A stretch of 43,480 bases of DNA, taken from the IMG/VR virus record IMGVR_UViG_3300042691_010608, positions 1 to 43,480 of that record, one strand, 5' to 3'. Below the pieces are notes generated by a model that saw only the letters and a program-made list of their open reading frames with translations, was not told where the DNA came from and did no database searches. Position 1 is the first letter of the stretch, and each line of letters begins with the position of its first letter. This DNA comes from a virus. Position numbers and translations under genes: made by a program. Below are positions 17,935 to 40,298 of the stretch, one piece after another.

Positions 17935-18207
17935 TCATTTAACCTTTTTCCTTTTCGCTCTCCCGGTGGGCGTGGTCGGCGCAGGCTTCCAGCGCCCGGA
18001 CGGCTCGGCATAGGACACATCCATCCCCATAGGCTCAAGCCCTAGGATGTTGTAGTCCGTCCATTCGATAGCGTCCTCCCGGGACAGGTCGTACAAGCCC
18101 TGGCACACCTCGATCAGTTTCCAGTAGTTGTACACCAGCCGCCCGGAGGGTTTGACCCGCTGGACTGCCTTGGCGAATTCTTTGTGTGGCTCTAGTTTGA
18201 TGTTCAT
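17935..18207 (-). CDS. Small basic hypothetical protein (90 aa)
   Basis: The protein is 90 residues. It has an aromatic helix region (LVYNYWKLIEVCQGLYDLSR) and a basic C-terminus (RAKRKKVK) after a Pro/Thr linker. It overlaps the methyltransferase gene by ATGA. Function is unknown. A partner of the methyltransferase is possible from position only. Confidence 0.55.
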   Translation of the reverse strand: MNIKLEPHKEFAKAVQRVKPSGRLVYNYWKLIEVCQGLYDLSREDAIEWTDYNILGLEPMGMDVSYAEPSGRWKPAPTTPTGRAKRKKVK

Positions 18208-18899
18208 AGGAAAAAGTCTTTCTGCTCCGGCGTGCCTGCCACCCGGGCGAACCCGGGCTGGCTGAAGAGCATACCTACCTCGGCGGCGATGCAGATATCG
18301 AGCGCCAGGGCATAGGGTACTTCAGCCCGTACCGCCGCTGACACATTGCTGGTTATACCTGTGTGTCCGCCCCGGGTTGTGGGCGTGTGGCACGGCGCTC
18401 GGTGACCACAGGGAAGTTTGAGCAGCAGGCTCTCAGGGAATACCCCGAACAGGTCGGTGGGCTTCTGCCACTTCATCCCGTACTGGCAATAGGTCACAGT
18501 ACGGCGCTCGTACTTCTGGATGCATTTCATATACCTCATCTTCGCCCTAGGGTTTTCGATAATTATGTACCTGGGGGCTAGTTGATCTATCAGCCTCACA
18601 GTATGCTCAAGTACCTTGAGGGCTAGTTTGGCCTTAATGGTCTTGGGCTGATGGGGTTTGGCGCTTTTAAGGCTAGTCCAGTTAGCCCAGGCAGCGAGCA
18701 GGCTGAATGTCTCGCAGGGTGGGGAGGCTAAGACGATGTCAGGCTTCCAAGGAAAGTCCTGTACCCCGACATCCAGTATGTTTTTGCAGATGTCCGGCTT
18801 GAAGCGCTTGGAGAAATCTACGCTCAGGACTTCGTGACCACGATCCTTGAATGCTGTACCCCAGCCACCAAGTCCTGAGAATAGATCGATTACCTTCAC
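18204..18899 (-). CDS. DNA (cytosine-5) methyltransferase
   Basis: This enzyme transfers a methyl group from S-adenosylmethionine to C5 of cytosine in DNA. Motif I is DLFSGLGGWG (5-14), the cofactor loop. Motif IV with the catalytic Cys is SPPC (59-62, Cys62). Motif VI is ENP (115-117), motif VIII a QYGMKWQKP version (139-147), and motif X PYALALDICIAAE near the C-terminus. At 231 residues it is short, so the target-recognition part (about 155-195, with CGHRAPCHTPTTRGG) is small. No restriction enzyme is next to it, so it probably protects phage DNA from host restriction. Confidence 0.88.
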   Translation of the reverse strand: MKVIDLFSGLGGWGTAFKDRGHEVLSVDFSKRFKPDICKNILDVGVQDFPWKPDIVLASPPCETFSLLAAWANWTSLKSAKPHQPKTIKAKLALKVLEHTVRLIDQLAPRYIIIENPRAKMRYMKCIQKYERRTVTYCQYGMKWQKPTDLFGVFPESLLLKLPCGHRAPCHTPTTRGGHTGITSNVSAAVRAEVPYALALDICIAAEVGMLFSQPGFARVAGTPEQKDFFL

Positions 18900-20609: not shown

Positions 20610-21413
20610 ATGAGTACATACAACAAAGTCGTAAAGAACCTGTCCTTCGCCCAGTACAAGAGCGAGCCTGCCGTCAACGCTTCTTTCCTTAAGAAGTTTG
20701 CGGTGTCTCCCCTGTACGCCAGCACCGATGAGTTCTCCTCCTCCGCCGCCACCGACCTGGGTTCGTTTGTCCACGCCCTGACGATTGATCCGTCCTCGCT
20801 GGATAACTTCGCCTGCCTCCCGACCACCGGGGAAGGTAGCAAGAAAGCCCGTGACGAATGGCGCAAGGCTCACCCCGAAGGCGTGCTTCTCTCTCCCTCC
20901 GCTATGGAGCAGGGCAAGGCTACTGCTGAAGCGCTCAAGCGCAACGGAGACTTCGCTCACCTGATGAGCCGTGACCCTGACACCGAGGTTTCTATCTTCG
21001 CCCAGCATCCCCGCTACGGCTGGGATATGAAAGGCCGTGTGGACATCCTGCTCGATGACGGCAAGACGATGATCCTTGGGGATGTGAAGACCTACGGCAA
21101 GCCGCTCACCAAGAAGTCTCTCTTCTGGGATATCCGTGAACGGGGCTACGACATCCAACTGGCGTTCTATCGCCGCATCATCCAGACTGTGCTTAACCGC
21201 ACCCCGGATGAGATGGCGCTCTACTTCGTTGAGACCGAGACCAGCGCCCACGATTCGGTCAAGGTCACGCTCGATGAGGGCTGGCTGGCTCACGCTGAGA
21301 TGCGACTGGACGAGTACTTCCGGATCTATGACGAGTGCCACAGCACTGGCATCTATCCCGGCTTCAACTTCGGCAAGCCGCTTCACCTCACGCTGGGAGA
21401 CAACCTGTCGTGA
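20610..21413 (+). CDS. RecE-like PD-(D/E)XK exonuclease
   Basis: This is a probable 5'-3' exonuclease that produces 3' single strands for annealing. The catalytic set is visible: GSFVHAL (His55), KGRVDIL (Asp145), GDVK (Asp158, Lys160) and YDIQLAFYR (Gln183). The order and spacing match the RecE/exonuclease VIII and DUF3799 group. The length of 267 residues is usual for phage versions that keep only the nuclease domain. It is 9 nt downstream of rusA and overlaps the initiator gene as GTGA. The Rad52-like annealase at 24004 is its likely partner. Confidence 0.88.
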   Translation: MSTYNKVVKNLSFAQYKSEPAVNASFLKKFAVSPLYASTDEFSSSAATDLGSFVHALTIDPSSLDNFACLPTTGEGSKKARDEWRKAHPEGVLLSPSAMEQGKATAEALKRNGDFAHLMSRDPDTEVSIFAQHPRYGWDMKGRVDILLDDGKTMILGDVKTYGKPLTKKSLFWDIRERGYDIQLAFYRRIIQTVLNRTPDEMALYFVETETSAHDSVKVTLDEGWLAHAEMRLDEYFRIYDECHSTGIYPGFNFGKPLHLTLGDNLS

Positions 21414-22066
21414 GCGAGCCTAAGGAAGGATTCGGCCTCTGGATCCCAGGGGCTGTTCTCTCACGCACGGACATCAGTCTAGAGGAGAAGTGCCTCTATG
21501 GGCTGGTGGAGGTGCTTGACGGGGGCAAGGGGTGCTGGGCATCCAACGAGTGGCTTGCGAGCCGCCTGAGCGTCAGCGAGAGGGCGGTACAGCGCTATCT
21601 TGCCAGGCTTGAGGAGGTTGGTCTGGTCATCAAGGTGATCAATGTCGAGGCTGGCAACCAGCGCCGAGTGCAGACTGTGGGCGCACAGGCCGTCTCCCCC
21701 TCACGCCAAGTTGTCGCCCCCCTCACGCCAATCTGTCGTGACCCTCACGCCAATCTGTCGTCCAAGAGTACAAGTGAGAATAAAGAAGAGATAGATACAC
21801 CCCAAACCCCATTGCCTCACGGAGAGTTGTTCAAGAGGGCTTGGAACGAATGGGTGAACTATCGTACCAAGACGAAGAAGCGCCTGTCCCGGTTCGCTCA
21901 GGAGAAGCAGTTGAAGATCCTTGAGGGTCTCACCGAACAGGAGTGTGTCGATTGCATCAACCGCTCCATCGCTAACGACTGGCAGGGACTGTTCCCCGAG
22001 AAGGCTAGGAATAGTAAACCTTTTTCCAAAATTCTAACTCAGGAGGATCACCGCAATGGTTTCTGA
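21410..22066 (+). CDS. Replication initiator, lambda O-like with HTH (218 aa)
   Basis: This protein is predicted to bind the origin and to recruit the helicase loader. The GTG start (21410) overlaps the previous stop as GTGA. Residues about 41-75 (GCWASNEWLASRLSVSERAV, then QRYLARLEEVGLV) form a winged HTH of the replication-protein type (HTH_36). A low-complexity linker (about 95-135) follows, then a C-terminal helical domain with ELFKRAWNEWVNYRTKTKKR (about 139-158), as in phage initiators that contact a loader. The linker DNA carries three iterons (21698-21760). The DnaC-like loader gene lies two genes downstream. Confidence 0.8.
   Translation: MSEPKEGFGLWIPGAVLSRTDISLEEKCLYGLVEVLDGGKGCWASNEWLASRLSVSERAVQRYLARLEEVGLVIKVINVEAGNQRRVQTVGAQAVSPSRQVVAPLTPICRDPHANLSSKSTSENKEEIDTPQTPLPHGELFKRAWNEWVNYRTKTKKRLSRFAQEKQLKILEGLTEQECVDCINRSIANDWQGLFPEKARNSKPFSKILTQEDHRNGF
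21698..21760 (+). repeat. Three origin iterons (19 bp, 22-bp period)
   Basis: Copies are at 21698-21716 (CCCTCACGCCAAGTTGTCG), 21720-21738 and 21742-21760 (both CCCTCACGCCAATCTGTCG). Start-to-start spacing is exactly 22 bp, close to two helical turns. As 22 is not a multiple of 3, the repeats are read in different frames and are kept at the DNA level, not for the protein. They lie inside the initiator gene, as in lambda O. Confidence 0.85.
21762..21812 (+). other. A/T-rich stretch next to the iterons (probable unwinding element)
   Basis: The stretch after the iterons is purine- and A/T-rich (AAGAGTACAAGTGAGAATAA, then AGAAGAGATAGATAC), in contrast to the GC-rich flanks. Lambda ori has the same order: iterons, then an A-rich region that unwinds. 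Function is inferred from this layout. Confidence 0.6.
22041..22046 (+). promoter_or_regulatory. Consensus Shine-Dalgarno AGGAGG
   Basis: AGGAGG lies 9 nt before the ATG at 22056, inside the end of the initiator gene. It is the only perfect Shine-Dalgarno I noticed, and it fixes the start of the 74-aa gene. Confidence 0.85.
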
Positions 22067-22280
22067 GGAAGACATCAATCGCTTAGGTTTCGATGCGTGG
22101 GCTGACAATCAGTTCATCAACCTGATCGAGGACTTCGTGATGCCGGGTCACGGCAATGTGAACATCGAGGGTATGGATTGCACAGTCGCACTCAAGTGGG
22201 ACGATGCTATGATCCACTGCGTCCTCCGTGCCTACACCGCTGACGGCTGGCAGACCTACGAGAAGCAGATCAAGCGATGA
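22056..22280 (+). CDS. Small hypothetical protein between initiator and loader (74 aa)
   Basis: The protein is acidic, with a strand pattern (MDCTVALKWDDAMIHCVLRA). It is the only gene here with a strong Shine-Dalgarno, which suggests high expression. It overlaps the initiator end by 11 nt and the loader start by ATGA. Function is unknown. A modulator of replication is plausible from position. Confidence 0.7.
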   Translation: MVSEEDINRLGFDAWADNQFINLIEDFVMPGHGNVNIEGMDCTVALKWDDAMIHCVLRAYTADGWQTYEKQIKR

Positions 22281-22969
22281 GCAAGCCATACTGCAACGGA
22301 TGCAAGGGATCTCTGACCCCTATGTGGGACGAGGCCAAGCGCCAGTTGGTGCATCGATTCTACACCTGCAAGGCGTGCGCACAGAGCGGCAAGACCACCT
22401 ACTGGGACTACCCGTTCCAGTACGATCAGGTGATGGAGAAGTTCAACCTCGTCTGGCTGGACACGCACCCCGAATACCCGAAGGCGTTCCTCGACACAAA
22501 AGTCGAACTGCTCGCACCTAACCTACAGCAAGCCGTCAAGTGGAAGCCGGGAGATAAGGTCAGCCTGCTCCTGCACGGCACGACTGGCACGGGTAAGACC
22601 CGTACTGCCTGGCATATCTTCAACCGCCTATGGTTGCAAGACTTCCCGGCTAAGGCAGTATGGTTGCCTATGCGCAAACTGGAAATGGCTATCGAGAAGG
22701 GGTTCGATGACCACAAACACGGGCAGGTGCTGGACTACTTCTGCAATGTCCCGTTGCTGTGCTTCGATGACCTAGGAAAGGAGCGCCTGACCGCCCGGAT
22801 GGAGTCAGACTTATTCGCTATCATCGATGAGCGCACCAGTAACCTGAGACCCACTATCATCACGACCAACTACAATGGAACAACCCTCCTTGAACGCTTC
22901 AACAATAAGGAGACAGGTGAAGCCCTCCTCCGCCGAATCCGTGAGTACTACACAGCCGTTCACGCTTAA
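22277..22969 (+). CDS. DnaC-like helicase loader (AAA+ ATPase)
   Basis: This protein is predicted to load the host replicative helicase at the origin. An N-terminal zinc finger has CNGC (Cys6, Cys9) and CKAC (31, 34). Walker A is GTTGTGKT (101-108), Walker B LLCFDDLG (160-167), sensor 1 TTNYNG (196-201), and an arginine pair lies at RRIREY (219-224). The length of 230 residues fits DnaC/IstB-type proteins. Its place after the O-like initiator mirrors lambda O and P. Overlap with the next gene is 29 nt. Confidence 0.88.
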   Translation: MSKPYCNGCKGSLTPMWDEAKRQLVHRFYTCKACAQSGKTTYWDYPFQYDQVMEKFNLVWLDTHPEYPKAFLDTKVELLAPNLQQAVKWKPGDKVSLLLHGTTGTGKTRTAWHIFNRLWLQDFPAKAVWLPMRKLEMAIEKGFDDHKHGQVLDYFCNVPLLCFDDLGKERLTARMESDLFAIIDERTSNLRPTIITTNYNGTTLLERFNNKETGEALLRRIREYYTAVHA

Positions 22970-28617: not shown

Positions 28618-29299
28618 CTGATTTGATCGAGTCCCTAACCTTGTCATACATCCACCAGACGGCAAGTGACGCTCCGCATAAGAGTGTGCCAGCAGCAGTC
28701 CACTCAAAGTACTGACTGTCAATGATATAAGGAACCGCACCAGCAAACGCACCTGCCAGGATAATAGGAATGCCGATACGGATAGATGCAAAGGCGCAGG
28801 CGGCTCCACCCAGGACTACCAACGCAGCCCCAGTAAGAGTCCAGATATCCCGGGAACTCTCCTTCTTAATGCGCTCGATCTCAGCCGTCAGCCTGGCGTT
28901 CTCGTCCTTCAACGCCTGGATGTCAGCCTTGGACTTTTTGGCATCAGCCTCAGCCTTAGCCCACATCTTGTCTACCTCAGCCTTCATCTTAGTAGCATAG
29001 TCCATCTGAGCCTGATACGCCTTCTGATCATTCTTCAATGCCCTAGCCCGGGCAAACTCCACATCCGTAGCCGTAGGCGTGGGTAGGTATGCTAACGCTA
29101 CCTTACCTTCAGCCTTCACGACCTCCGGCTTGTCGCTGTTCTCCACGGCAACAGTCACGGCAGCAGCAACCCGGCTGTCCGACTTGTCGATTTTTTCCCC
29201 GACTTTCGCCAGGTCATCGACAGGTGGAGCCGGTGCGGGATCGGGAGTCTTGGTCGTGGAGCAGGCTGACAGCAGGATGGCGGCTAGTATGAATCTCAT
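28595..29299 (-). CDS. Lipoprotein with C-terminal membrane segments, spanin-like (234 aa)
   Basis: The N-terminus is MRFILAAILLSAC with lipobox LSAC (lipid on Cys13). Residues about 70-145 form a coiled coil (ENARLTAEIERIKKESSRDI). Up to three hydrophobic segments follow (TLTGAALVVLGGAACAFASI, IPIILAGAFAGAVPYII, TAAGTLLCGASLAVWWMY). A lipid anchor in the outer membrane plus an inner-membrane C-terminus is the plan of a unimolecular spanin, which fuses the envelopes in the last step of lysis. Three membrane segments are more than usual. It starts by ATGA overlap with the giant protein gene. Confidence 0.6.
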   Translation of the reverse strand: MRFILAAILLSACSTTKTPDPAPAPPVDDLAKVGEKIDKSDSRVAAAVTVAVENSDKPEVVKAEGKVALAYLPTPTATDVEFARARALKNDQKAYQAQMDYATKMKAEVDKMWAKAEADAKKSKADIQALKDENARLTAEIERIKKESSRDIWTLTGAALVVLGGAACAFASIRIGIPIILAGAFAGAVPYIIDSQYFEWTAAGTLLCGASLAVWWMYDKVRDSIKSDGNDKQP

Positions 29300-32200
29300 C
29301 GGTTGTAGCGCTTCATAGCGTCACGCTGAGCGGCTTCCTGCCTGTTTACTCCTGTGCGACCCCTGTCGCTAGCGGGAGGTGTCTCGATAGCCTGGGCGGC
29401 TTCACCAGCCCGGCGAATGAGTTCCTTCGACTTCTCGACCTTGTCAGTAGGCAGGGCATACACGCCAAGGCCGACCTGAAGTTTGGAAGCAGCCTTGAAC
29501 TTGTCAGCGGCTTCTAGGGCATCAATGGAGTTGTTGCCATTGTAGATCATAACGCCGTTAGCGCCGTAGACCTTGTACTTTGTGCTAGAGCCGAAGCCCT
29601 TTTCGTCAGCCTTGCTGAACTCACGGACGAGTCTGACACCGCCTTCCGTTTCCCAGATGCGGCGCTCGACAGCGTTCAGGATCCCCTGACCCTTCATCGG
29701 CCCGGCATAGGCACGACCAGCGATGTCGTTACCACGACCACGACCAGCGTATTGCAGGTTGAAGGCAGATGTAGCCTCAGCGGTCTGAACACGCTTCCAG
29801 ACTTCGTGCTTGGCAAGCCATTCTTGTGGCGTAGTAGTCTTCGGAAGGTTAAAAGGAGACTCTATTGGTGTCATCTTAAACCTACTAGACAGGATCGGCT
29901 TCTGGAAGATGCCGGGCTTAGATGGAAGCGTGGTGTCCATCGGCGCACCAGTATACGGGGAGTAGGCAATACCAGTACCAGGATCATAGGCCAGTTGTGT
30001 GAGTCGAGACCCAAACTCATCCATACTGATACGGAGCAGTCCAGGGCTGATCGCAGGCTCGTTGCTGGCAAAGAACTCGTCCACAAGTTTCTGCATCCCG
30101 GTAGCACGGGCGGCTTCGCTTTGGGTTCGACCTTCAAGCACACGCTGAGAAGCCTCAGCAAGCGCACGCTGACGGGCTGTGATGATAGCGTCCAGTTTCT
30201 CAGCAGCAATCTGAGCCTCCTTAGCAGCCTTAGCGTCTGCCTTGCGCTGCGCCTCGTATAACTTTCTAATCTGTTCGGCACGGGCGGCTTCCTGGTTAGC
30301 GATGTCTTTCTCAGCCTCAAGAAGAGCCTTCTCGATCTTTCCAAGTCGGCGAGCCTCGTCACGGGCTTGCTTCTGCTGGCGCTTGTCGTGACCCTGGGCA
30401 TACTGTTCCCAGCCAGCATCAGACGCAGCCTGACCACGAATGTCTTCGCCCTGCTCCTTGAGTAGTTCACGCTGACGGGCGGCTTCGGCATTCTTGGCAT
30501 CCTGTCGGCGCTGCTCGATACGGGCGAGGATACGCTGACCCTGGATACGCTTACGCTCTTCCTCGATGACAGCCGGGTCTTCTGCACGCTGTTCAGCCAG
30601 GATCTCGTCACGATCTTTATTCCAGGCAGCACGCTCCTGAGGTGTCGGGCCGGGAGGCATAGCCTCATCATACATAAACAGAGGCGGCGGCTGATCAGGA
30701 GAGCGCTCAGGCAGAATAGGCTTGGACTCAAACGAGCCAGGCTCCTTGTGCTTAACAAGATATTTGGCCTCCTCAGACATCTTGATGACTTGCACGCTCT
30801 TGGGCAGTCTGTCACGAAGGATGGCTACGGCAGCGTCAGGGTCTTTGTAAGCGCCGTCATTGACCACGACATAGGCGATGTCACGGATGTTCTTGATGTC
30901 CTGGCCTCGCTCTCCGGATCGGCTAAGAAGGACAAGGGGGCCGTCCTTATTGGCCTCTCCGCTTCCAGTTCCAAGTCCAGCACCAGCGCCAGCACGATCC
31001 TCTACAGTTGCATCAGGAGACAGACGATACGGAGCAGTGTAGAACGGCTTCTCAGGATTGATGCCTTCGCTGAACAACTTGATGACATTCTTCAGGGCTG
31101 TGTTCGGGCCTGCCTTCGTCATCCCGTGAGCCTGATAGTTGTGACCGAACTGCGTCATCGGGAACTGAGTGTCATTCTTCGTATCGTATCCGTTGGCTGT
31201 CACCAGCGCATCATCGCTCCATCCGTGGCGGTCTGTTTCCAGTTCCTTGAACGGAACAGAAGCACGCTCAATCTCAGCCTTGGTCATAGTGACAGGCTTT
31301 TCGGGCTGGAGTTTGCCCAACTTCTTGAATCCTGCCGGAGTGTCTCCGTGATAACCCTCAAGGACTCCAAGGACATTAGATCCGTCAGCCTTGATTTTTT
31401 CGCCTTTTAGGACGACAACCATTCGAGAACGAGAAGACTCCTTGGTAGGATTTTTCACATAGATGTCTACCTTGTTTTGATCAAGGAGTGATACGAACTT
31501 TTCAAGAGCGCCCGATTCAAATACTGCGCCATTACCATCAGGCGTAGTAAGTCGTGTAAAGGCGGTGTCCTTGTAGTTTGTCTTGCTGTATGTCTTGCTG
31601 TAATTGACGGACTCAATTGCAGTATCCACACGGAAATCCGGTGTCATAAGAACATACTGTTTCCTGTTCTTACCCTCAGACATCATCGTCATTGCGATTC
31701 CGTCTTCAGTTACAACACGGGCAGGATCAGATTCCCGCTTTGTTCCGAAGATTTTATCCTGCATCTCACGCCACCCTTCCAGAAGGATGTCATCGTGTCT
31801 AAAGAGGAACATTCTTCCATCCGAAATAAACGGAGCATCAGGCTTAGCACGATTAGCGAACCGATACTTGAAGGCAGCACCTGTCTGAGACTGCACTGAT
31901 GTGTCCTTGATGGTTGTTAGGGTAACAGGCTGACGCTGACCACGGACACCCTTGGTCTCAACCGGGACTGTAGGCGGAAGAGTGACTGTAGGACGGGCGG
32001 CAGCATTCTGCTCCGTGAAGTCAGCAAGCGCCTGGTTGAGCCACAGTTGGGATTCAACCTCAGATCCAACGGCTGTACGAACTACTTCAAGCGCCTCGGC
32101 CTGATTCTTGGCAGAGATGTGGCGGATGTTTCCGTCACCCATCGTGTAGGCATAGGAACGCTCACCCTTCACATTGCCGACATACAGGCGCACATCAGGC

Positions 32201-35200
32201 AGGATCGGGTGTGTGAGTTCAGTCTCGACATTGAATCCTTCGATCTTGCCACGCTTGCCACCCTCAAAGGTTGTGGCGCTGATGATCATCTGGCTGACAC
32301 CCTTGACCTGGGGAACATTGACACGACCCCAATCGTTAAGAGAGAACACAAATGAGGACGATGTCCAGCCACGCTGGGTAAGGAACACGGACTGAGCAGT
32401 CTTTGTAGCGAAGCCCATCTGATCCAGTCGCACATCGAAGAGCGCAAAGTCAGTACCACGGGTGGCAAATCCTGTGGCAGCATTGGTCTGCGTATTGCCC
32501 TGAACGAACGGCAGGCGTTTCTGGCCGGACTCAGTTCCGAAGATGACACGGATAGCATCACGCATAGCAGCGCCACGCTCAGGATTCTTAGGATCAAGCA
32601 CATCTGCGCTAGGCTCGGAAAGGCGTGTGGGCGTAGCAGTGTACGGATCAATCGGGCCTTTCCCGTAATGGAAGTTCATCATAATGGCTGCTTTTTCGTG
32701 GAAGCCAGCCAGGTCTCCGAACAGTTGAGTGAGGCGCTCAGGTGTGTAGTTATTGCCCTGAGGGTCTTTAACCATCTCGGTCTTGTTGCCGTCCTTGTCA
32801 CGATACCAAAGACCTTCGCTGAAAGCGCTGTTAGTGCTACGGACAAACTCCTCAGTACCGAACATCTTGACCTTAATGACCTTCTGCTTGAGGTCGATCT
32901 TCTTGCCCGGGTTAGCGGGGTCATCGATCCTTACAGGGTTGCCCTTCTCATTATAGACAACGACATCCTCGATACTGATGGACAGAGGGCTGGCACGGCG
33001 TGTCGCCGTCTTGCCTGCGATGTCCTTGGGGATCATCAATCGGCGCTCAGTAAGGGCATCCTTGCCTACGCTGAAGATATTATTGTAGTCGAAGGACAGG
33101 ACAGCCGTAGACTCGCCGGACGACATAGCCTTCATAACCATCAGCAGGTTCTCCCTGATGGAGGCGGGAAGGTTAGCGTTGTTGGCGATAGCGGCAATCT
33201 CGGCATCAGACGGGATACCAGTGATAGTAATATTCGTTGGGTTCTTTGGGTCTGTATACTTGACCATACCACGATTAGCCTCAGGGATTCCGGAAAGGGA
33301 ATCAATGACGCTGCGGGAGAACGAGTCTGACTTCTGACCAATTGCCTCAGGTGTCAGGATATTATTGCCATCCGGCGTAAGCATCCAGTCAAAGCCGTTA
33401 GACTTAGCGAAGTCCACACGCTGCTGAACCGGGACGAGCGGATCGTACAGGCTTACAGGCTTAACACGGCGAGACTGCTTTCCGCCTGTCAAGGCAATGA
33501 CCCGGTCATAGAACTCGTTCAGGACAGGATTACGGATGATCTCGTTCTTGTTGTTGAAGAAGTAACCACGGAGAGTCCCGTCTCCAGCCTCGATGAAGCG
33601 CATACCAGCCGATTCCAACTGAGCCTTCATATGGCTGGCGCTACGGCGGACGAACATCCCCATATTAGGGTCGAACATCATCCGGGCGGCACGGGCTACC
33701 TCATCCGTGACCTGGCGGTCACCGAACAGCATCTTGCGCAGGTCGCTCCATCCGATGGAGTCACCAGGCTTTCGTCCTTCGCCAGGCTTGTACGCACTAG
33801 AGGCGGCAGCACCTTCAGGGGTAGAAACACCCGGGCGGTAGGCAGTACGCTTGTTGCCGTCAATCGTAGCCATAAACCAAGTCAGGATCTCCTGAGTCGG
33901 GCCGACAAGCCCGGAGAAGTCCTTGCCACCGCTGGCTACATAGGCATCCTTAGCGGCCTTGAACTCAGACAGATACCTGGCCTTCATATCAGGCGGAAGG
34001 TCGGCGACATAGGCATTGACCAGCGCCTCGGACACTTCAGGTGAATAAGCGACAGTCCTACCTGCGCCGGACACATCCTGCTCAGCGCCCCACATCATCT
34101 TGACCATATCAGGCATAGCGTCCTGAACGGCGGCATCCTGCAACAGGGCGTGCCAGCCTTCAGACATAGCGCCAAGGTTGTCGATGTTGTTGATGTCGAT
34201 GTAGGTTCGGCGACCCTGAGGGCCGTCTACGATATAGAATCCGTTGGCTACCTTGCGTGTTGTGTTTCCGTTGGGATCAATGCGTGTCTCATACGGACGC
34301 ATCGGAACAGGGTTTCCGGCCTCTATCTGAGCCTTTGCGAGGTTGCCTTTGAGTTGATCAATCTCACGGGTGATGATCTGGGACTCTGCCTCAAGACGGG
34401 ACTGCGCTTCAAGCGCACGCTCAAGTTTGACATTAGCAGCCTCGACAGCCTTAGGGTCAGGCTTACCAAAGTTCCGGCCTTGAGCCTTCTCGGCAAGTTT
34501 AGCCATCTGCTGCTCAACTTTGATGATCTCAGCAGTATCCTTCTGAGGATCGAGCGCATCAGCCTTCTTCTTGAGCGCAACAATTTCCTCCTGAATCTTG
34601 GTCATCGCATCAGCCTGCGCTGTGGTTTGCGTGCCTTCTAGGGCGGCAACCTCGGCCTCAAGTTTGGCGATCTCTTCCTTGCCCTTGATGATGGCATCCT
34701 TTCGAGCGTCAAGTTTCTGCTGCTGGGCGTTGATGTCGTTCTGTGTCGCAGTAGCAGAGTCCCTGGCAAGGCGAGCCTTCTCAAGCCTGGCCTGTCTGTC
34801 AGCGATATAAGCCTGGCGCTTAGCGCCCTCATCCGCCCCCGGGAACGCCATCATAGCCTCTTTCAACAACTGGGTTGCCTCTGTGTGAGGGTCGTTGGTG
34901 AGGATCTGCGCAGTCTCAAACTCGGCGCTATTGACGAAACTCATCTGACCACGATGCGTGATGACTAGGTCACGGACAATGTTGGCTCGCTTGATGTACT
35001 CAGCGGAGGCAGCAGCCGGGTCGTTGGGATGCAGTTTGTCAGCACCATTAAGGTACTCAAACACTCTTGCACGGGAAGACGGGTCGATGCCACCACGATC
35101 AGTGGAGGACTCAAGGAGTGTGGCTAGGTCACCAAGGACAGTCTTGTCGAGGATAGGCTGTGCGCCGGAAGGCATCATCGCATACAGGCGACCAGCGGCA

Positions 35201-38121
35201 CGAAGTCCGGCAGAGAAGCCCATACCGATGCCAGCACCTGCGCCAGTAGCATCACGATCATTCAGGTGAGCGATGATAGCGCCTGTGCCTCCGGAGATGA
35301 ATCCATCCTCCCACACCACACGGGCTGTGTTGCGTACTACCTCCTCAAAACCGGACTGATGCGCACGGCGAAGCCAGGTGGCATCATCTACAAGTTCGTT
35401 CATACGGATCTTGGCGGCAGGATTGCCTTCCGCAATCTGTGCGAACCTAGCAGCCTCAGCCTCCATATCCATAGCAGTCTGGATGAAGATAGACCCGCCG
35501 TGACGAGAACCGCTTGTCGTGTTCTTGCCAAGAGCCTTCTGGATTCGACCGAATCCTGCAACAGAAGTCCCGACAGCATTCAATACTTCCGGGCGGATAA
35601 GCACGCTTGTCGTGAACCTAGAACCGGCAGCACCGACAACTCCAGCGCCACCAGCACCAGCAAGGGCTGCGGCAAGGATGTCACCCTCAATAAGCATCGC
35701 AAGAGCAGTTCCGCTGGCAGCGGCGGCGGCAGTTCCAGTCGCTAAAGCAGCCATACCGGGCTGACGAAGACCGAACCCTGCAAGCATATGGATGCCACGC
35801 TTGACAAGATTGCCTTCCACGACCCCACCCTTTCGGGCATTCTCAAAGAAGTCACCAAGACCTTGGATTGAACGACCAACAAAATTGGCGGCTACACCAG
35901 CGCCCTGCTGACCATACCCGGCAATAAGCCTGGCTCGCATAGCATTGATCTTGGCCTGCGTAGTGCCAGTAGCGGCATCTGGAATAACATCTAGTTCTGC
36001 CTGAAGTTTGCTTGCACGGGTGGCGAAGTTTTCATTCTTGGCGATGACCTTGCCCATACGCTTACGGATGACGGAGGCGGCGGCTGTCTGTCCGATTAGT
36101 CCAGTCTTTCGAGGGTCTGTAAGCGCAATGGCGATGACATCGTCATCTGTGAGTTCAGCGCCATATTTTGTCGTATTCTTGATCAGATCACGAACTGTGT
36201 CCACGGCTGTCTGGAATGCCACATCCTTAGTACCTGCGGCGATGCGAGCGGCATTAGCCTCAGCGGACAAAGCACGGAATCCCTGTGCAGCCTTTTCAAC
36301 GGCAGCGGTTGCCTGAGCGGCCTTAGCGCCTACGCCAAACAACTTGGTCGCACCGATTGCAAGGGTGATCGGGTCTGCAAGGGCAGCAGCCTGCTGAAGG
36401 CGCTCATTCTGCAACTGACCACGGGCGGCACGGGCGGCTTCTTCCATACCCAATTTCGAGTACATCTGGGCGACAACCGGATCTGTCTTTATCGACACGC
36501 TGCGCCAGTTCTCCAGCCACTGGTCAATCTCTGCGTCAAGTTGCTGACCCGTCATCTCCTTGTAGGTATTTGAACCTTTCACATAAGCCTCAAAAGGAGA
36601 CATAAATGCCGTATAAGCATTAGTAGCCGCCTGCGTCATAGGTTGAAACGATGTCGATGATGCGGCTCTATTAAGCAGAGCAAGGGGCGAGCGCTTGATG
36701 TTGCTCTCAGCCCGGAACATCACAGAGTTAGGATCTACGGAACTGTTGAAAAACTTGACCAGATTAGGAACAGACTGAAGGATGCCTTCGCCAAAATTAG
36801 CCAGGCGCTCAGCGGACATCTCAGGGCGGTAAGCACCTTCAGATTTCAGTTGGCTAAGTTTGCGGAAAGTAGCGATCATCTCAGGATCGGCATATTGCCC
36901 GAACCTGCTTGTGATATATTGAGCCTGCTTGCCAGGGTTGTCGCTAAGCGCAACAAGTTCAGGGCCGATCTTGCTGGCGTATTCGTGCGCCTTGACGAGG
37001 ATTCGGTTTGCCTCATCACGCTGCTCTTGAGGCTTCATCATCCAGTTGTCAGACAGGACGAATGTATTGTTCTTGACCATCACATTGCCAAGCGTGCCTG
37101 CCGCAACCATAGTACCGACAGCACCTTCGGCAAAGCCACCAATGCCATATCCGGCCTCAACGACAAGATGAGAAACGCCTTCAAGCAGTCCACTGATGAA
37201 ATGGCCTCCGTGACGATCCTTCCAGTCCGTGTATGCAAGCCAAGCATCACGCCTGGCAAGACCTTCAAGAGATTCAAGTCTAGTAGGATCAGCGTTGATC
37301 ATCTCACCCTGACGGGCAAGAGGGTCTAGCATATCCACCATAAACCGGAGTTTGGTCATCGTGTAGGTATCCGTCTTTTGGCGGACATCCTTTTCGGTGG
37401 CTTCGGCTTGGAGTCGGGATACGATGTGCGGATCTACGCCAGCCTGAGAGGCGATAGCAATAAGGTCTTTTTCGGAAAGGCTAGAAGGACTCCAGTAACC
37501 ACGATTCTGGCGCTTCTCGATCATATCCTGAATGATAGGTCGAATCTTGCCAAACGCATATCTGGCATCGTGGTCTGTGCGGGGCTTCTCTACATTGACA
37601 AGATACCAGGCGGCATCAGTGGGAGAGTTCTTGCCCTCCGGCAGGGTGGAACGGATATTGTTAATGAACCTGTTCCAGTCACCAGGATTGAAAGAGGCAG
37701 CAGCAGTCTTAAGGCTCTGCATCGTCCGCTCGTCACGCTTTACGACACCCGTAGATGTATCTCCTTTTCCAGTCCAGATCTCAGCGGCATCAAAGATGAA
37801 CCGATTGATTTCCCGATATCCTTCAGACTTCGTGCGTGCCGTATATTCAAGCGTCCCGACCTGATACTGGGGATCGCTGTACATAGCCCCGGCTCGCTGA
37901 CCGCCAGGAAGCACATACTCGAAAGGCTCCGTAGGAAAGCCGTTCTCATCCCTGTTCTTAGGGGGAGTTACAGTCTGTCCAGAAGGAGCAGCAACCTCTT
38001 GGTTTGGCTGAACCTCGCTAGAGGGAAACTGCAAAGAACCTTCACTCAGGTTTGTCGGCTTGATGGCATAGTCATCTGCCGAAAAATTCTGAGTGCCTGA
38101 TACGGAGAAGTTGTTTTCCAT
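29296..38121 (-). CDS. Giant internal virion protein (2,941 aa)
   Basis: This single frame takes a fifth of the window. Its position among virion genes and its size suggest an ejected internal (core) protein, as gp16-like proteins are in podophages. Visible regions: N-terminus Pro/Gln-rich (1-60). Hydrophobic helices lie at about 307-349 (VVEAGYGIGGFAEGAVGTMV) and 764-827 (Ala/Gly-rich), good candidates for membrane insertion. A long coiled coil covers about 1090-1270. Near 1320 is a degenerate metallopeptidase-like SEGWHALL. A beta-rich half follows at 1400-2400. A domain around 2390-2447 has LLSRSGERGQDIKNIRDIAY. An Arg/Glu/Ala-rich helical region lies at 2494-2650. No lysozyme signature is seen. 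Function by part is unknown. Confidence 0.75.
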   Translation of the reverse strand: MENNFSVSGTQNFSADDYAIKPTNLSEGSLQFPSSEVQPNQEVAAPSGQTVTPPKNRDENGFPTEPFEYVLPGGQRAGAMYSDPQYQVGTLEYTARTKSEGYREINRFIFDAAEIWTGKGDTSTGVVKRDERTMQSLKTAAASFNPGDWNRFINNIRSTLPEGKNSPTDAAWYLVNVEKPRTDHDARYAFGKIRPIIQDMIEKRQNRGYWSPSSLSEKDLIAIASQAGVDPHIVSRLQAEATEKDVRQKTDTYTMTKLRFMVDMLDPLARQGEMINADPTRLESLEGLARRDAWLAYTDWKDRHGGHFISGLLEGVSHLVVEAGYGIGGFAEGAVGTMVAAGTLGNVMVKNNTFVLSDNWMMKPQEQRDEANRILVKAHEYASKIGPELVALSDNPGKQAQYITSRFGQYADPEMIATFRKLSQLKSEGAYRPEMSAERLANFGEGILQSVPNLVKFFNSSVDPNSVMFRAESNIKRSPLALLNRAASSTSFQPMTQAATNAYTAFMSPFEAYVKGSNTYKEMTGQQLDAEIDQWLENWRSVSIKTDPVVAQMYSKLGMEEAARAARGQLQNERLQQAAALADPITLAIGATKLFGVGAKAAQATAAVEKAAQGFRALSAEANAARIAAGTKDVAFQTAVDTVRDLIKNTTKYGAELTDDDVIAIALTDPRKTGLIGQTAAASVIRKRMGKVIAKNENFATRASKLQAELDVIPDAATGTTQAKINAMRARLIAGYGQQGAGVAANFVGRSIQGLGDFFENARKGGVVEGNLVKRGIHMLAGFGLRQPGMAALATGTAAAAASGTALAMLIEGDILAAALAGAGGAGVVGAAGSRFTTSVLIRPEVLNAVGTSVAGFGRIQKALGKNTTSGSRHGGSIFIQTAMDMEAEAARFAQIAEGNPAAKIRMNELVDDATWLRRAHQSGFEEVVRNTARVVWEDGFISGGTGAIIAHLNDRDATGAGAGIGMGFSAGLRAAGRLYAMMPSGAQPILDKTVLGDLATLLESSTDRGGIDPSSRARVFEYLNGADKLHPNDPAAASAEYIKRANIVRDLVITHRGQMSFVNSAEFETAQILTNDPHTEATQLLKEAMMAFPGADEGAKRQAYIADRQARLEKARLARDSATATQNDINAQQQKLDARKDAIIKGKEEIAKLEAEVAALEGTQTTAQADAMTKIQEEIVALKKKADALDPQKDTAEIIKVEQQMAKLAEKAQGRNFGKPDPKAVEAANVKLERALEAQSRLEAESQIITREIDQLKGNLAKAQIEAGNPVPMRPYETRIDPNGNTTRKVANGFYIVDGPQGRRTYIDINNIDNLGAMSEGWHALLQDAAVQDAMPDMVKMMWGAEQDVSGAGRTVAYSPEVSEALVNAYVADLPPDMKARYLSEFKAAKDAYVASGGKDFSGLVGPTQEILTWFMATIDGNKRTAYRPGVSTPEGAAASSAYKPGEGRKPGDSIGWSDLRKMLFGDRQVTDEVARAARMMFDPNMGMFVRRSASHMKAQLESAGMRFIEAGDGTLRGYFFNNKNEIIRNPVLNEFYDRVIALTGGKQSRRVKPVSLYDPLVPVQQRVDFAKSNGFDWMLTPDGNNILTPEAIGQKSDSFSRSVIDSLSGIPEANRGMVKYTDPKNPTNITITGIPSDAEIAAIANNANLPASIRENLLMVMKAMSSGESTAVLSFDYNNIFSVGKDALTERRLMIPKDIAGKTATRRASPLSISIEDVVVYNEKGNPVRIDDPANPGKKIDLKQKVIKVKMFGTEEFVRSTNSAFSEGLWYRDKDGNKTEMVKDPQGNNYTPERLTQLFGDLAGFHEKAAIMMNFHYGKGPIDPYTATPTRLSEPSADVLDPKNPERGAAMRDAIRVIFGTESGQKRLPFVQGNTQTNAATGFATRGTDFALFDVRLDQMGFATKTAQSVFLTQRGWTSSSFVFSLNDWGRVNVPQVKGVSQMIISATTFEGGKRGKIEGFNVETELTHPILPDVRLYVGNVKGERSYAYTMGDGNIRHISAKNQAEALEVVRTAVGSEVESQLWLNQALADFTEQNAAARPTVTLPPTVPVETKGVRGQRQPVTLTTIKDTSVQSQTGAAFKYRFANRAKPDAPFISDGRMFLFRHDDILLEGWREMQDKIFGTKRESDPARVVTEDGIAMTMMSEGKNRKQYVLMTPDFRVDTAIESVNYSKTYSKTNYKDTAFTRLTTPDGNGAVFESGALEKFVSLLDQNKVDIYVKNPTKESSRSRMVVVLKGEKIKADGSNVLGVLEGYHGDTPAGFKKLGKLQPEKPVTMTKAEIERASVPFKELETDRHGWSDDALVTANGYDTKNDTQFPMTQFGHNYQAHGMTKAGPNTALKNVIKLFSEGINPEKPFYTAPYRLSPDATVEDRAGAGAGLGTGSGEANKDGPLVLLSRSGERGQDIKNIRDIAYVVVNDGAYKDPDAAVAILRDRLPKSVQVIKMSEEAKYLVKHKEPGSFESKPILPERSPDQPPPLFMYDEAMPPGPTPQERAAWNKDRDEILAEQRAEDPAVIEEERKRIQGQRILARIEQRRQDAKNAEAARQRELLKEQGEDIRGQAASDAGWEQYAQGHDKRQQKQARDEARRLGKIEKALLEAEKDIANQEAARAEQIRKLYEAQRKADAKAAKEAQIAAEKLDAIITARQRALAEASQRVLEGRTQSEAARATGMQKLVDEFFASNEPAISPGLLRISMDEFGSRLTQLAYDPGTGIAYSPYTGAPMDTTLPSKPGIFQKPILSSRFKMTPIESPFNLPKTTTPQEWLAKHEVWKRVQTAEATSAFNLQYAGRGRGNDIAGRAYAGPMKGQGILNAVERRIWETEGGVRLVREFSKADEKGFGSSTKYKVYGANGVMIYNGNNSIDALEAADKFKAASKLQVGLGVYALPTDKVEKSKELIRRAGEAAQAIETPPASDRGRTGVNRQEAAQRDAMKRYNR

Positions 38122-40298
38122 TATTTAGAGCGGGGAGCAGAGTCTCGCAGGCGGAACACGACATCGCCATCCTTTACTTCCTTGTTGGCATCACCAAGTT
38201 GTCCGGCGTTCTGCAAGGTAGTCCACAGGGTGGCACGGGCTTCTTCGACTGCGGCAGCGTCAAACGAAAGTTTGTTGCCGGAGTCTTCGATGCCGAACTT
38301 TTCCATAAACCTGCGAGAAGCATCAGCAACTGCACGCTGCTGGTCTGCCTGATCCTTAAATCCATCGTCCTCAAGCGCCTGAGCCTGCTCTTCAAGCCCG
38401 GAAGGGGAGAACTTCATATCGTAGCCAAGCATAGACTTACGATACATATTATCAACGAACTTGGCTAGGGCGTTGGTGGAAGCCTCAAAGACTTCCTTGT
38501 CATCAATCGGGTCTAGCGTGTTGATGTATGTGATCGCTCGCTGGACGAAGAGTCGGTCAGAGTCAGAGAAGTTACCACCAGAGACAATGGCTCGGCGGAA
38601 TGTGGCAACACCGAAGACCTGTTGCAGTTCTCCAGTAGCCCAGTTTTCCAAGTCCTTCGTCAACAAACGCATACGACCAGTATAATCCTGGTCAAGAGCA
38701 TCTCGCTGTTCCAGCGTTTCAGCCATACCAAGGATGAAGTCAGTAGACTTGATCCAGCCTTCAGCCAGCGTATTGACTTCATTCTGAGCCGTAGCAGTAA
38801 GCGCACGAATACCATACTTAGATGGCTCCTTACCCTTGCGGATGATTTCGCTACCGATATGGACGAACGGCCCGATTCTCGGATAAGCGGCAACATCAGC
38901 ACGCTTACGATCAGTTTCTTCTAAATTCGCCTTAATGTCCCTGGCTGTCTCAGCCCGGTTAGAAGCACTGCTGGCAGCAACAGTCTTGGCAATATCAAGT
39001 TTACCCTGCTCAGCCTTAACCTGATTATCAACAGCATCAATCTGCGCCTTGTATCGGTTCTCAATATCCTTGATGGCGCTCTCTTGGTAAGAGATAAGCA
39101 TATTGGCGGCAGTACCAGTACCCTTCGTGACGATCATTCTGGCTTTGATTGCGGCGTGGTCTCGCTGTGCGTTACCAATGTCTTCCTGCATTCGTTGAAC
39201 CAGGCGTGTGCGCTCAGTTCCAAGAGTGTTGATCCTAGCCTGTACAACCTCAGCAGTCTCACGGACACGCTCGATTTCGACACGCTCTGGAACAGCAGCC
39301 TGTGTAGCGGGAGCGGCAGCGGGAGCGGCAGCAGGAGCAGGGGCAGGGGCAGCGGCCTGTGTCTGTGCGCCAGTGGGAGCGGCAGCAGGCTTAGTCCCGG
39401 CTGTCAGCGCCGGAGAAACGGCGGGAGCGGCGGCGGCTTCAGGAGCAGCAGCCGTAGGCTTCTGCTTGGGGTAGCCGTACTTGTCGAAGTCAGCAGAAGT
39501 CGGAGCCGGAGCAGCAGGAGCAGATGTAGTCGGAGCAGGCTCAGATCCACGCTTCAATGTGGCATCAAAACGAGCCAGACTCTCAAAAAATGCACCACCC
39601 TGAGGAAGTCCATTGCTGTCAAAACTAGTACCTGTTCCGGTATAAGCAGCAAGACTAGGACGGGCAACAGCGCCAGGCGCAACAGGAGACCCAGGAACAG
39701 TAGGAATTGTGCTACCAGTAATGCCTGGAGCAGCGTTTCCGAATCCAGCGGCATTGTAAATTGTATTTAGATTGCCAGCCTCAGCCTCGGCAAGACGGGC
39801 TTCCGTGGTCAACTTCAGAGTCTGCGCACGCTTTAGATCAAGTTCAACTTGAGATGTAGCAGCCTCACGCTCCTGCGCTTCGATCTTTTTCTTCGACTCA
39901 AAGTTTGCAATGAATCGCTTGAGATCAACCCCTGTAAGTTTGTTGATATCTCCACCAGTCTTGTTGTAAAAATCGATAGCCGATGTATCCAGCATATCCT
40001 TGTTAGGATTATTTGGATTGACAGAAACTGTGCCATCGGGGTTTTTGATCAGGCTTCCGGACTTAACGCCAGCCTCAATCTTGGCCTTGTCACGCTGAAG
40101 AAATGGATCAAGAGAACCTTTCTGAATGGCCTCTTCTTCACTCTTCTTCTTGGCCTCCTCATAGCCCTGCACGACTGCCTGCCCAGCCTGGGCAAGACCC
40201 TGACCGATGGCAGCACCAGCCCGTCCGTAAGCCTCTACGAACCCGGGAGCGATCTGCTGAACTTGTTCAGACTGATACTTTTGGAACGGGGAGGGCAT
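38121..40298 (-). CDS. Internal virion protein with Ala/Pro-rich linker (725 aa)
   Basis: The N-terminus has an Ala/Gly-rich helical part (GRAGAAIGQGLAQAGQAVVQ at about 26-45). Coiled-coil-like helices follow, then a very Ala/Pro-rich linker (about 253-333), and then a long helical region with RERVR-like repeats. The C-terminus is helical and acidic. The gene is coupled by TAATG to both neighbours. A core or ejection protein that works with the giant protein is likely from position and composition. Confidence 0.65.
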   Translation of the reverse strand: MPSPFQKYQSEQVQQIAPGFVEAYGRAGAAIGQGLAQAGQAVVQGYEEAKKKSEEEAIQKGSLDPFLQRDKAKIEAGVKSGSLIKNPDGTVSVNPNNPNKDMLDTSAIDFYNKTGGDINKLTGVDLKRFIANFESKKKIEAQEREAATSQVELDLKRAQTLKLTTEARLAEAEAGNLNTIYNAAGFGNAAPGITGSTIPTVPGSPVAPGAVARPSLAAYTGTGTSFDSNGLPQGGAFFESLARFDATLKRGSEPAPTTSAPAAPAPTSADFDKYGYPKQKPTAAAPEAAAAPAVSPALTAGTKPAAAPTGAQTQAAAPAPAPAAAPAAAPATQAAVPERVEIERVRETAEVVQARINTLGTERTRLVQRMQEDIGNAQRDHAAIKARMIVTKGTGTAANMLISYQESAIKDIENRYKAQIDAVDNQVKAEQGKLDIAKTVAASSASNRAETARDIKANLEETDRKRADVAAYPRIGPFVHIGSEIIRKGKEPSKYGIRALTATAQNEVNTLAEGWIKSTDFILGMAETLEQRDALDQDYTGRMRLLTKDLENWATGELQQVFGVATFRRAIVSGGNFSDSDRLFVQRAITYINTLDPIDDKEVFEASTNALAKFVDNMYRKSMLGYDMKFSPSGLEEQAQALEDDGFKDQADQQRAVADASRRFMEKFGIEDSGNKLSFDAAAVEEARATLWTTLQNAGQLGDANKEVKDGDVVFRLRDSAPRSK

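Follow-up and report, generated by a model that had tools for sequence, protein, structure and literature searches.

A predicted replication origin within the initiator gene of an uncultured phage with an SU10-type capsid

Some replication origins lie inside the gene of the protein that acts on them. This intragenic layout has been established experimentally for phage lambda (PMC5043065; PMC7466680), whose oriLambda is located within the O gene and consists of 19-bp iterons with dyad symmetry and a 40-bp A+T-rich region (PMC5043065). The minimal lambda fragment that is competent for unwinding comprises two iterons and the adjacent A+T-rich region (PMC7466680). In the lambda record, the annotated iterons begin at positions 39034, 39054, 39078 and 39101, which corresponds to spacings of 20, 24 and 23 bp, and they occur in several reading frames. 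In phage SPP1, for which the layout is likewise experimentally established, the oriL repeats lie inside gene 38 and are accompanied by an unwinding element and the loader gp39 (PMC6316719). A plasmid counterpart, also established by experiment, is Rep of pSK41, of the RepA_N family, whose N-terminal winged-HTH domain binds boxes located centrally in the rep gene, so that the origin DNA encodes the central region of the protein (PMC5703833).

We analyzed a 43,480-bp viral sequence (IMG/VR record IMGVR_UViG_3300042691_010608), hereafter the window, and found a locus that closely resembles these systems. Judged from its sequence, we consider it highly probable (approximately 0.88) that bases 21698–21799 are a phage replication origin that lies inside the linker-encoding part of its own initiator gene. 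The arrangement is a new, well-conserved example of the known intragenic iteron origin, and not a new arrangement. Our literature search, which most subscription journals lay outside, found no description of the origin of this lineage.

The initiator gene (21410–22066, plus strand) begins with GTG and encodes 218 amino acids. The protein matches the Pfam family HTH_36 (1.1e-7), and PHROG 678, “replication initiation O-like”, matches its residues 26–203 (8.6e-17). An AlphaFold2 model built on 14 relatives (mean pLDDT 69, pTM 0.40) divides the protein into a winged-HTH domain (approximately residues 14–87), a linker (92–132) and a helical C-terminal domain (139–189). The protein is thus O-like by profile and has a DNA-binding N-terminal domain and a separate C-terminal domain. 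The linker has very low model confidence and is predicted to be disordered. In Foldseek searches, the best matches of the winged-HTH fold are N-terminal domains of plasmid initiators, although these are weak (4pql, 4pt7 “initiator” and 5kbj “Rep-DNA complex”; E about 2e-3 to 1e-2) and MarR proteins rank close behind. A sequence search of solved structures returned one irrelevant weak match. The C-terminal domain and its counterpart in Gifsy-2 O are homologous (hhalign 7.8e-9).

Three iterons of 19 bp occupy positions 21698–21760 on the plus strand, with a period of exactly 22 bp. The first (21698–21716) reads CCCTCACGCCAAGTTGTCG, while the second (21720–21738) and third (21742–21760) both read CCCTCACGCCAATCTGTCG, from which the first differs at two positions. 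The shared pattern, CCCTCACGCCAA(GT/TC)TGTCG, begins at 21698, 21720 and 21742. The sequence therefore bears out the initial annotation, which had described three 19-bp direct repeats at exact 22-bp spacing, two of them identical and one with two differences. Since codons 92–132 correspond to bases 21683–21805, the iterons and the tract that follows them fill the linker, and the annotated placement in the linker of an HTH initiator gene also holds. The gene thus carries at least three iterons of 18–22 bp, spaced by about two helical turns, in coding sequence between two domains.

The array is unlikely to have arisen by chance. Its score for three equally spaced 17-mers is 32/34, the highest of any such array in the window. 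This score was reached by none of 2000 synonymous-codon shuffles of the initiator gene (maximum 27) and by none of 200 Markov copies of the window (maximum 25). No further iteron core with at most two mismatches occurs anywhere in the window. One possible extra iteron, on the minus strand at the initiator start codon (21398–21414), has three mismatches; because chance alone would give approximately 1.6 matches of this quality in the window, we rejected it. The three copies begin in frames 2, 0 and 1 of the gene, in that order, so the encoded peptides differ and no peptide is repeated. The iteron is an imperfect dyad. Iteron 2, taken with its flanking TGA, and the consensus both match at 14 of 18 dyad positions, a level attained by 0.17% of the 19-mers in the window; iterons 1 and 3 are weaker (10/18). 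This symmetry is as might be expected for a site bound by a dimer.

Immediately 3′ of the iterons is an A-rich, purine-rich tract (21762–21799, plus strand; A+T 0.66, purine 0.76), which we propose as the unwinding element. The 40-mer at 21761–21800 is 65% A+T, versus 44% for the window, and 72.5% purine, and only 0.8% of the 40-mers in the window equal it in A+T richness. This composition confirms the A/T-rich, purine-rich stretch that had been noted after the repeats. Nonetheless, the moderate A+T richness of the tract (66% in the window and 66–74% in relatives) counts against the origin reading. A second A/T-rich element, AGTAAAyCTTTTnnnAAAATyyTAAC, occurs at 22009–22036, just upstream of the next gene (ATG at 22056). 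It is kept in all 16 relatives and in a more distant, 49% identical cousin (L014), and its role may be that of a translation signal or of another site that melts easily.

A helicase loader gene is encoded beside the initiator (22277–22969, plus strand). Its product, an AAA+ protein of 230 amino acids with the Walker A motif GTTGTGKT, matches PHROG 50, “DnaC-like helicase loader” (2e-25), and IstB_IS21 (1.3e-6). The DnaC-like loader that had been reported to follow the initiator is thus present, with a small open reading frame of 74 amino acids in between (22056–22280, plus strand); Pfam and PHROG profile searches with this small frame gave no family match. The loader gene was found in the records of all 17 relatives searched. 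The early cluster also encodes RusA, an exonuclease-VIII-like protein and an Erf/Rad52-like annealing protein. Among the scanned open reading frames, which are part of those in the window, we recognized no DNA polymerase, primase or replicative helicase.

Elsewhere in the window, a gene at 18204–18899 (minus strand) encodes a C-5 cytosine methyltransferase-like protein of 231 amino acids that covers the N-terminal third of the Pfam model, and is possibly a shortened or divergent form. Another open reading frame (29296–38121, minus strand) encodes 2941 amino acids that match nothing in Pfam or PHROG. The related phage C75C1 likewise has a very long open reading frame in its structural block.

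Searches of IMG/VR and GTDB genomes yielded 15 distinct close relatives, whose initiators are 74–88% identical to that of the window in protein sequence, and the cousin L014. In all 15 close relatives, three iteron copies are recognizable at the same position with a spacing of exactly 22 bp, although the first copy is degraded in one of them (L012). The 48 copies align without gaps, and 9 of 22 positions are invariant in all of them. Their consensus is CCCTCACGCCAAKYTGTCGTGA, which contains the imperfect dyad TCACGnCAnnnTGnCGTGA; the center varies, and almost no change is seen in the left half. The tract also occurs in all 16 sequences, the window included (66–74% A+T, 76–84% purine). In the 41,972-base record of one relative, L013, each end of the contig carries part of the loader gene and the two parts overlap in residues, which makes it probable that the genome is complete and closed into a circle. 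A closely related replication module (L034) is on a 9.4-kb contig of a metagenome-assembled genome labeled Verrucomicrobiota, but this is a weak hint as to the host because the binning of phage contigs is unreliable.

The conservation of the array and the tract is at the level of DNA. Across the 16 sequences, synonymous-codon identity is 0.934 in the iterons and 0.980 in the tract, versus 0.660 in the rest of the gene (Mann-Whitney p = 8e-7 for the iterons and 1.4e-5 for the tract, values that are only indicative because the sequences are related). By contrast, amino-acid identity is 0.80 in the iterons, 0.73 in the tract and 0.82 elsewhere in the gene. Third codon positions in this stretch are approximately as conserved as first and second positions, whereas they are clearly less conserved in nearly all of the remaining gene. 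Given that synonymous sites are better kept and the peptide is not, the DNA itself is under selection. Among the relatives compared, the initiator diverges most in its linker peptide, while identities in relatives other than L014 are 83–93% for the winged-HTH domain and 71–91% for the C-terminal domain. These data answer a check that the initial annotation had called for, namely whether 22-bp iterons persist in related initiator genes as the linker diverges, and agree with its statement that the DNA is kept and the protein repeat is not.

The array, its dyad symmetry, selection on its DNA and on that of the tract, their position in a disordered linker between folded domains and the conserved linkage to a loader gene are direct observations. 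What function they serve is a matter of weighing alternatives. It is conceivable that the same initiator binds these sites mainly for autoregulation, as a roadblock in its own gene, or for copy control, and not at an origin. The protein does have an HTH domain, its own gene contains sites that look cognate, and the array is inside a transcribed operon. However, the sites are located approximately 290 bp into the gene and not at a promoter, and the half-site-like match at the start codon is not kept in relatives L003, L005, L011 and L013. The DNA-level conservation also covers the adjacent A-rich tract, which a roadblock would not need, and a loader gene is adjacent. We therefore regard regulation as the main role of the array as improbable.

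A comparison with the cousin L014 bears on which protein reads the iterons. Its initiator is 49% identical to that of the window overall, with 43% identity in the winged-HTH domain, 23% in the linker and 67% in the C-terminal domain, and its loader is 69% identical. At the same place in the gene, L014 carries another repeat, CCCCCCACGAAAT and then a TTCAYR half-site, with a spacing of 23 bp, and this repeat is likewise followed by an A/G-rich tract. Taken alone, the L014 array, which has two good copies, is only weakly significant, since its score is equaled in 6 of 200 shuffles. The site thus differs together with the recognition domain, while the C-terminal domain and the loader are retained, a pattern that would follow from recognition of the iterons by the initiator.

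Iteron arrays in general also act as partition sites, and the sequence of the array alone would be compatible with a partition or packaging site, or with a binding site for another phage or host protein. However, the array is part of an initiator gene and has an A-rich tract and a loader gene beside it, a position that matches the lambda, SPP1 and RepA_N origins (PMC5043065, PMC6316719, PMC5703833), and the repeat in L014 differs together with the DNA-binding domain of the initiator itself. Such other roles consequently seem very improbable. Finally, the linker peptides of the family are recognizably similar (PSRQ, LTP.CRDPHA.LS), but the idea that this peptide is constrained, e.g., by contact with the loader, and that a recent duplication left the DNA repeat behind as a relic is hardly credible, given copies in three frames with peptides unlike each other, synonymous sites that are more conserved in the array than in the remaining gene, and a linker that is predicted to be disordered and that shows the lowest conservation within the protein among the relatives compared.

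We thus return to the reading of the locus as an origin and to its similarity to lambda. In both cases, the initiator has N-terminal DNA-binding and C-terminal domains, the central part of the gene carries dyad iterons that are out of frame, an A+T-rich, purine-biased tract lies on the same side of the iterons (74% A+T and 67% purine in lambda) and a helicase loader gene is just downstream. However, lambda O itself has no detectable similarity to the initiator (hhalign probability 0.2%), although an O-like PHROG and the C-terminal domain of Gifsy-2 O match it. Moreover, the window has three iterons and lambda has four, the iteron sequence is another one, the virus has an SU10-like capsid, and the loader is a DnaC-like AAA+ protein, not P; it matches DnaC-like PHROGs and IstB/AAA models, with no P family among its matches. 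The “lambda O/ori/P logic” originally proposed for this locus therefore applies to the intragenic iterons, the tract and the adjacent loader, but not to the identity of that loader. Similarly, the 22-bp period is out of frame, as had been emphasized, but this is not special, since the lambda iterons are also out of frame and the layout recurs in many phages.

The architecture of SPP1 is also similar, in that gp38 binds direct repeats in its own gene, beside an A+T-rich unwinding element, and works with a phage loader. SPP1 differs in that it encodes a DnaB-type helicase of its own (gp40) and has a further origin, oriR (PMC6316719). We recognized no second array in a scan of the window, and no such helicase among the scanned open reading frames. 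SPP1 gp38/gp39/oriL and the Gifsy-2 type of O paired with a DnaC-like protein are closer working analogues than lambda O/P. The RepA_N plasmids resemble the locus in that the best, though weak, fold matches of the initiator are initiator or Rep N-terminal domains. However, these are plasmids and not phages, and the sequence family is not shared: the Pfam matches of the initiator include HTH_36 and not the RepA_N domain.

A full-length homologue of the initiator (hhalign 4e-20) occurs in the Pseudomonas phage Cruim01, where it is annotated as a hypothetical protein. The corresponding part of its gene contains three repeats, spaced by 22 and 23 bp, although the iteron sequence and the phage are different. 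More generally, we applied the same array scan to initiator genes of named phages. The positive control, lambda, was detected, with no synonymous shuffle reaching its score. Arrays beyond every synonymous shuffle were also found in phiES15, Gifsy-2, Cruim01, GJ44, Cormatin, PMBT4, phi39:1 and LLC-1, so the intragenic layout is present in at least eight of the named phages scanned besides lambda. EKP1 passes the scan, but its spacing is in-frame, and the initiator genes of Ceridwen, iLp1308, AR1074 and C75C1 fail it. Among distant HTH proteins, L029, L030 and L031 have no significant array at 17–30 bp, although a 33-bp repeat occurs in frame in L031; L033 is a borderline case. Another distant HTH initiator-like gene (L032, 3287–3352) has a linker with three copies of ACCCCAGAAGAAAACTTC at 23-bp spacing and with dyad symmetry.

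The major capsid protein of the window is of the SU10 type (SU10_MCP, PF17236, 1.6e-47) and is 27–30% identical to those of named phages. The portal protein matches SU10_portal weakly (7.2e-6, below the cut-off). The SU10-like capsid of the initial annotation is thus established, while a podovirus-type genome is plausible, as judged from the capsid and portal genes. In three larger relatives (36,959, 41,972 and 44,947 bases), the iteron-bearing initiator occurs together with a capsid protein 86–94% identical to that of the window; the remaining viral relatives are represented by shorter fragments. The named phages that are related by capsid or terminase replicate differently. One of them, phiM5, encodes DNA polymerase A and a primase/polymerase. 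The closest by terminase (32%), C75C1, does not share the replication module, since it has a short initiator of 139 amino acids without significant repeats and its own DnaB-like helicase. The iteron module together with the SU10-type capsid therefore marks a lineage. The combination of this initiator and origin with an SU10-type capsid is ordinary modular mosaicism.

We propose that dimers of the winged-HTH domain would bind the three dyad iterons, whose spacing is close to two helical turns, and thereby form a complex like the O-some that would melt the adjacent A-rich, purine-rich tract. The C-terminal domain would bring the DnaC-like loader, which would put a DnaB-type helicase of the host on the melted strand, and the host replisome would then be recruited. 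A host helicase is proposed because no phage helicase or DNA polymerase was recognized among the scanned open reading frames. GC skew lends no support to an origin here, as its cumulative maximum is near 20 kb, where the gene strand also switches; being confounded by gene strand, the skew carries no information here or even has the wrong sign.

For an uncultured lineage of phages with SU10-type capsids, these results provide a confident predicted origin and its initiator, with exact bases. Intragenic iteron origins recur well beyond lambdoid phages, where iterons of unrelated sequence occupy the corresponding part of the gene. The prediction of origins from sequence alone therefore becomes practical, by finding 20–24-bp dyad repeats that are out of frame in the linkers of HTH initiators. 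Natural variants such as L014 allow the joint change of an initiator domain and its site to be studied. It is possible, although we hold this idea only tentatively, that the winged-HTH domain and the iterons behind it form one exchangeable cassette, and that the difference between L014 and the other relatives would be such a swap. The plasmid pPR9 is a precedent for the exchange of an N-terminal domain plus origin as a unit (PMC5703833). If the cassette exists, phages of this lineage would change their origin specificity in one recombination event, while keeping their C-terminal domain and loader.
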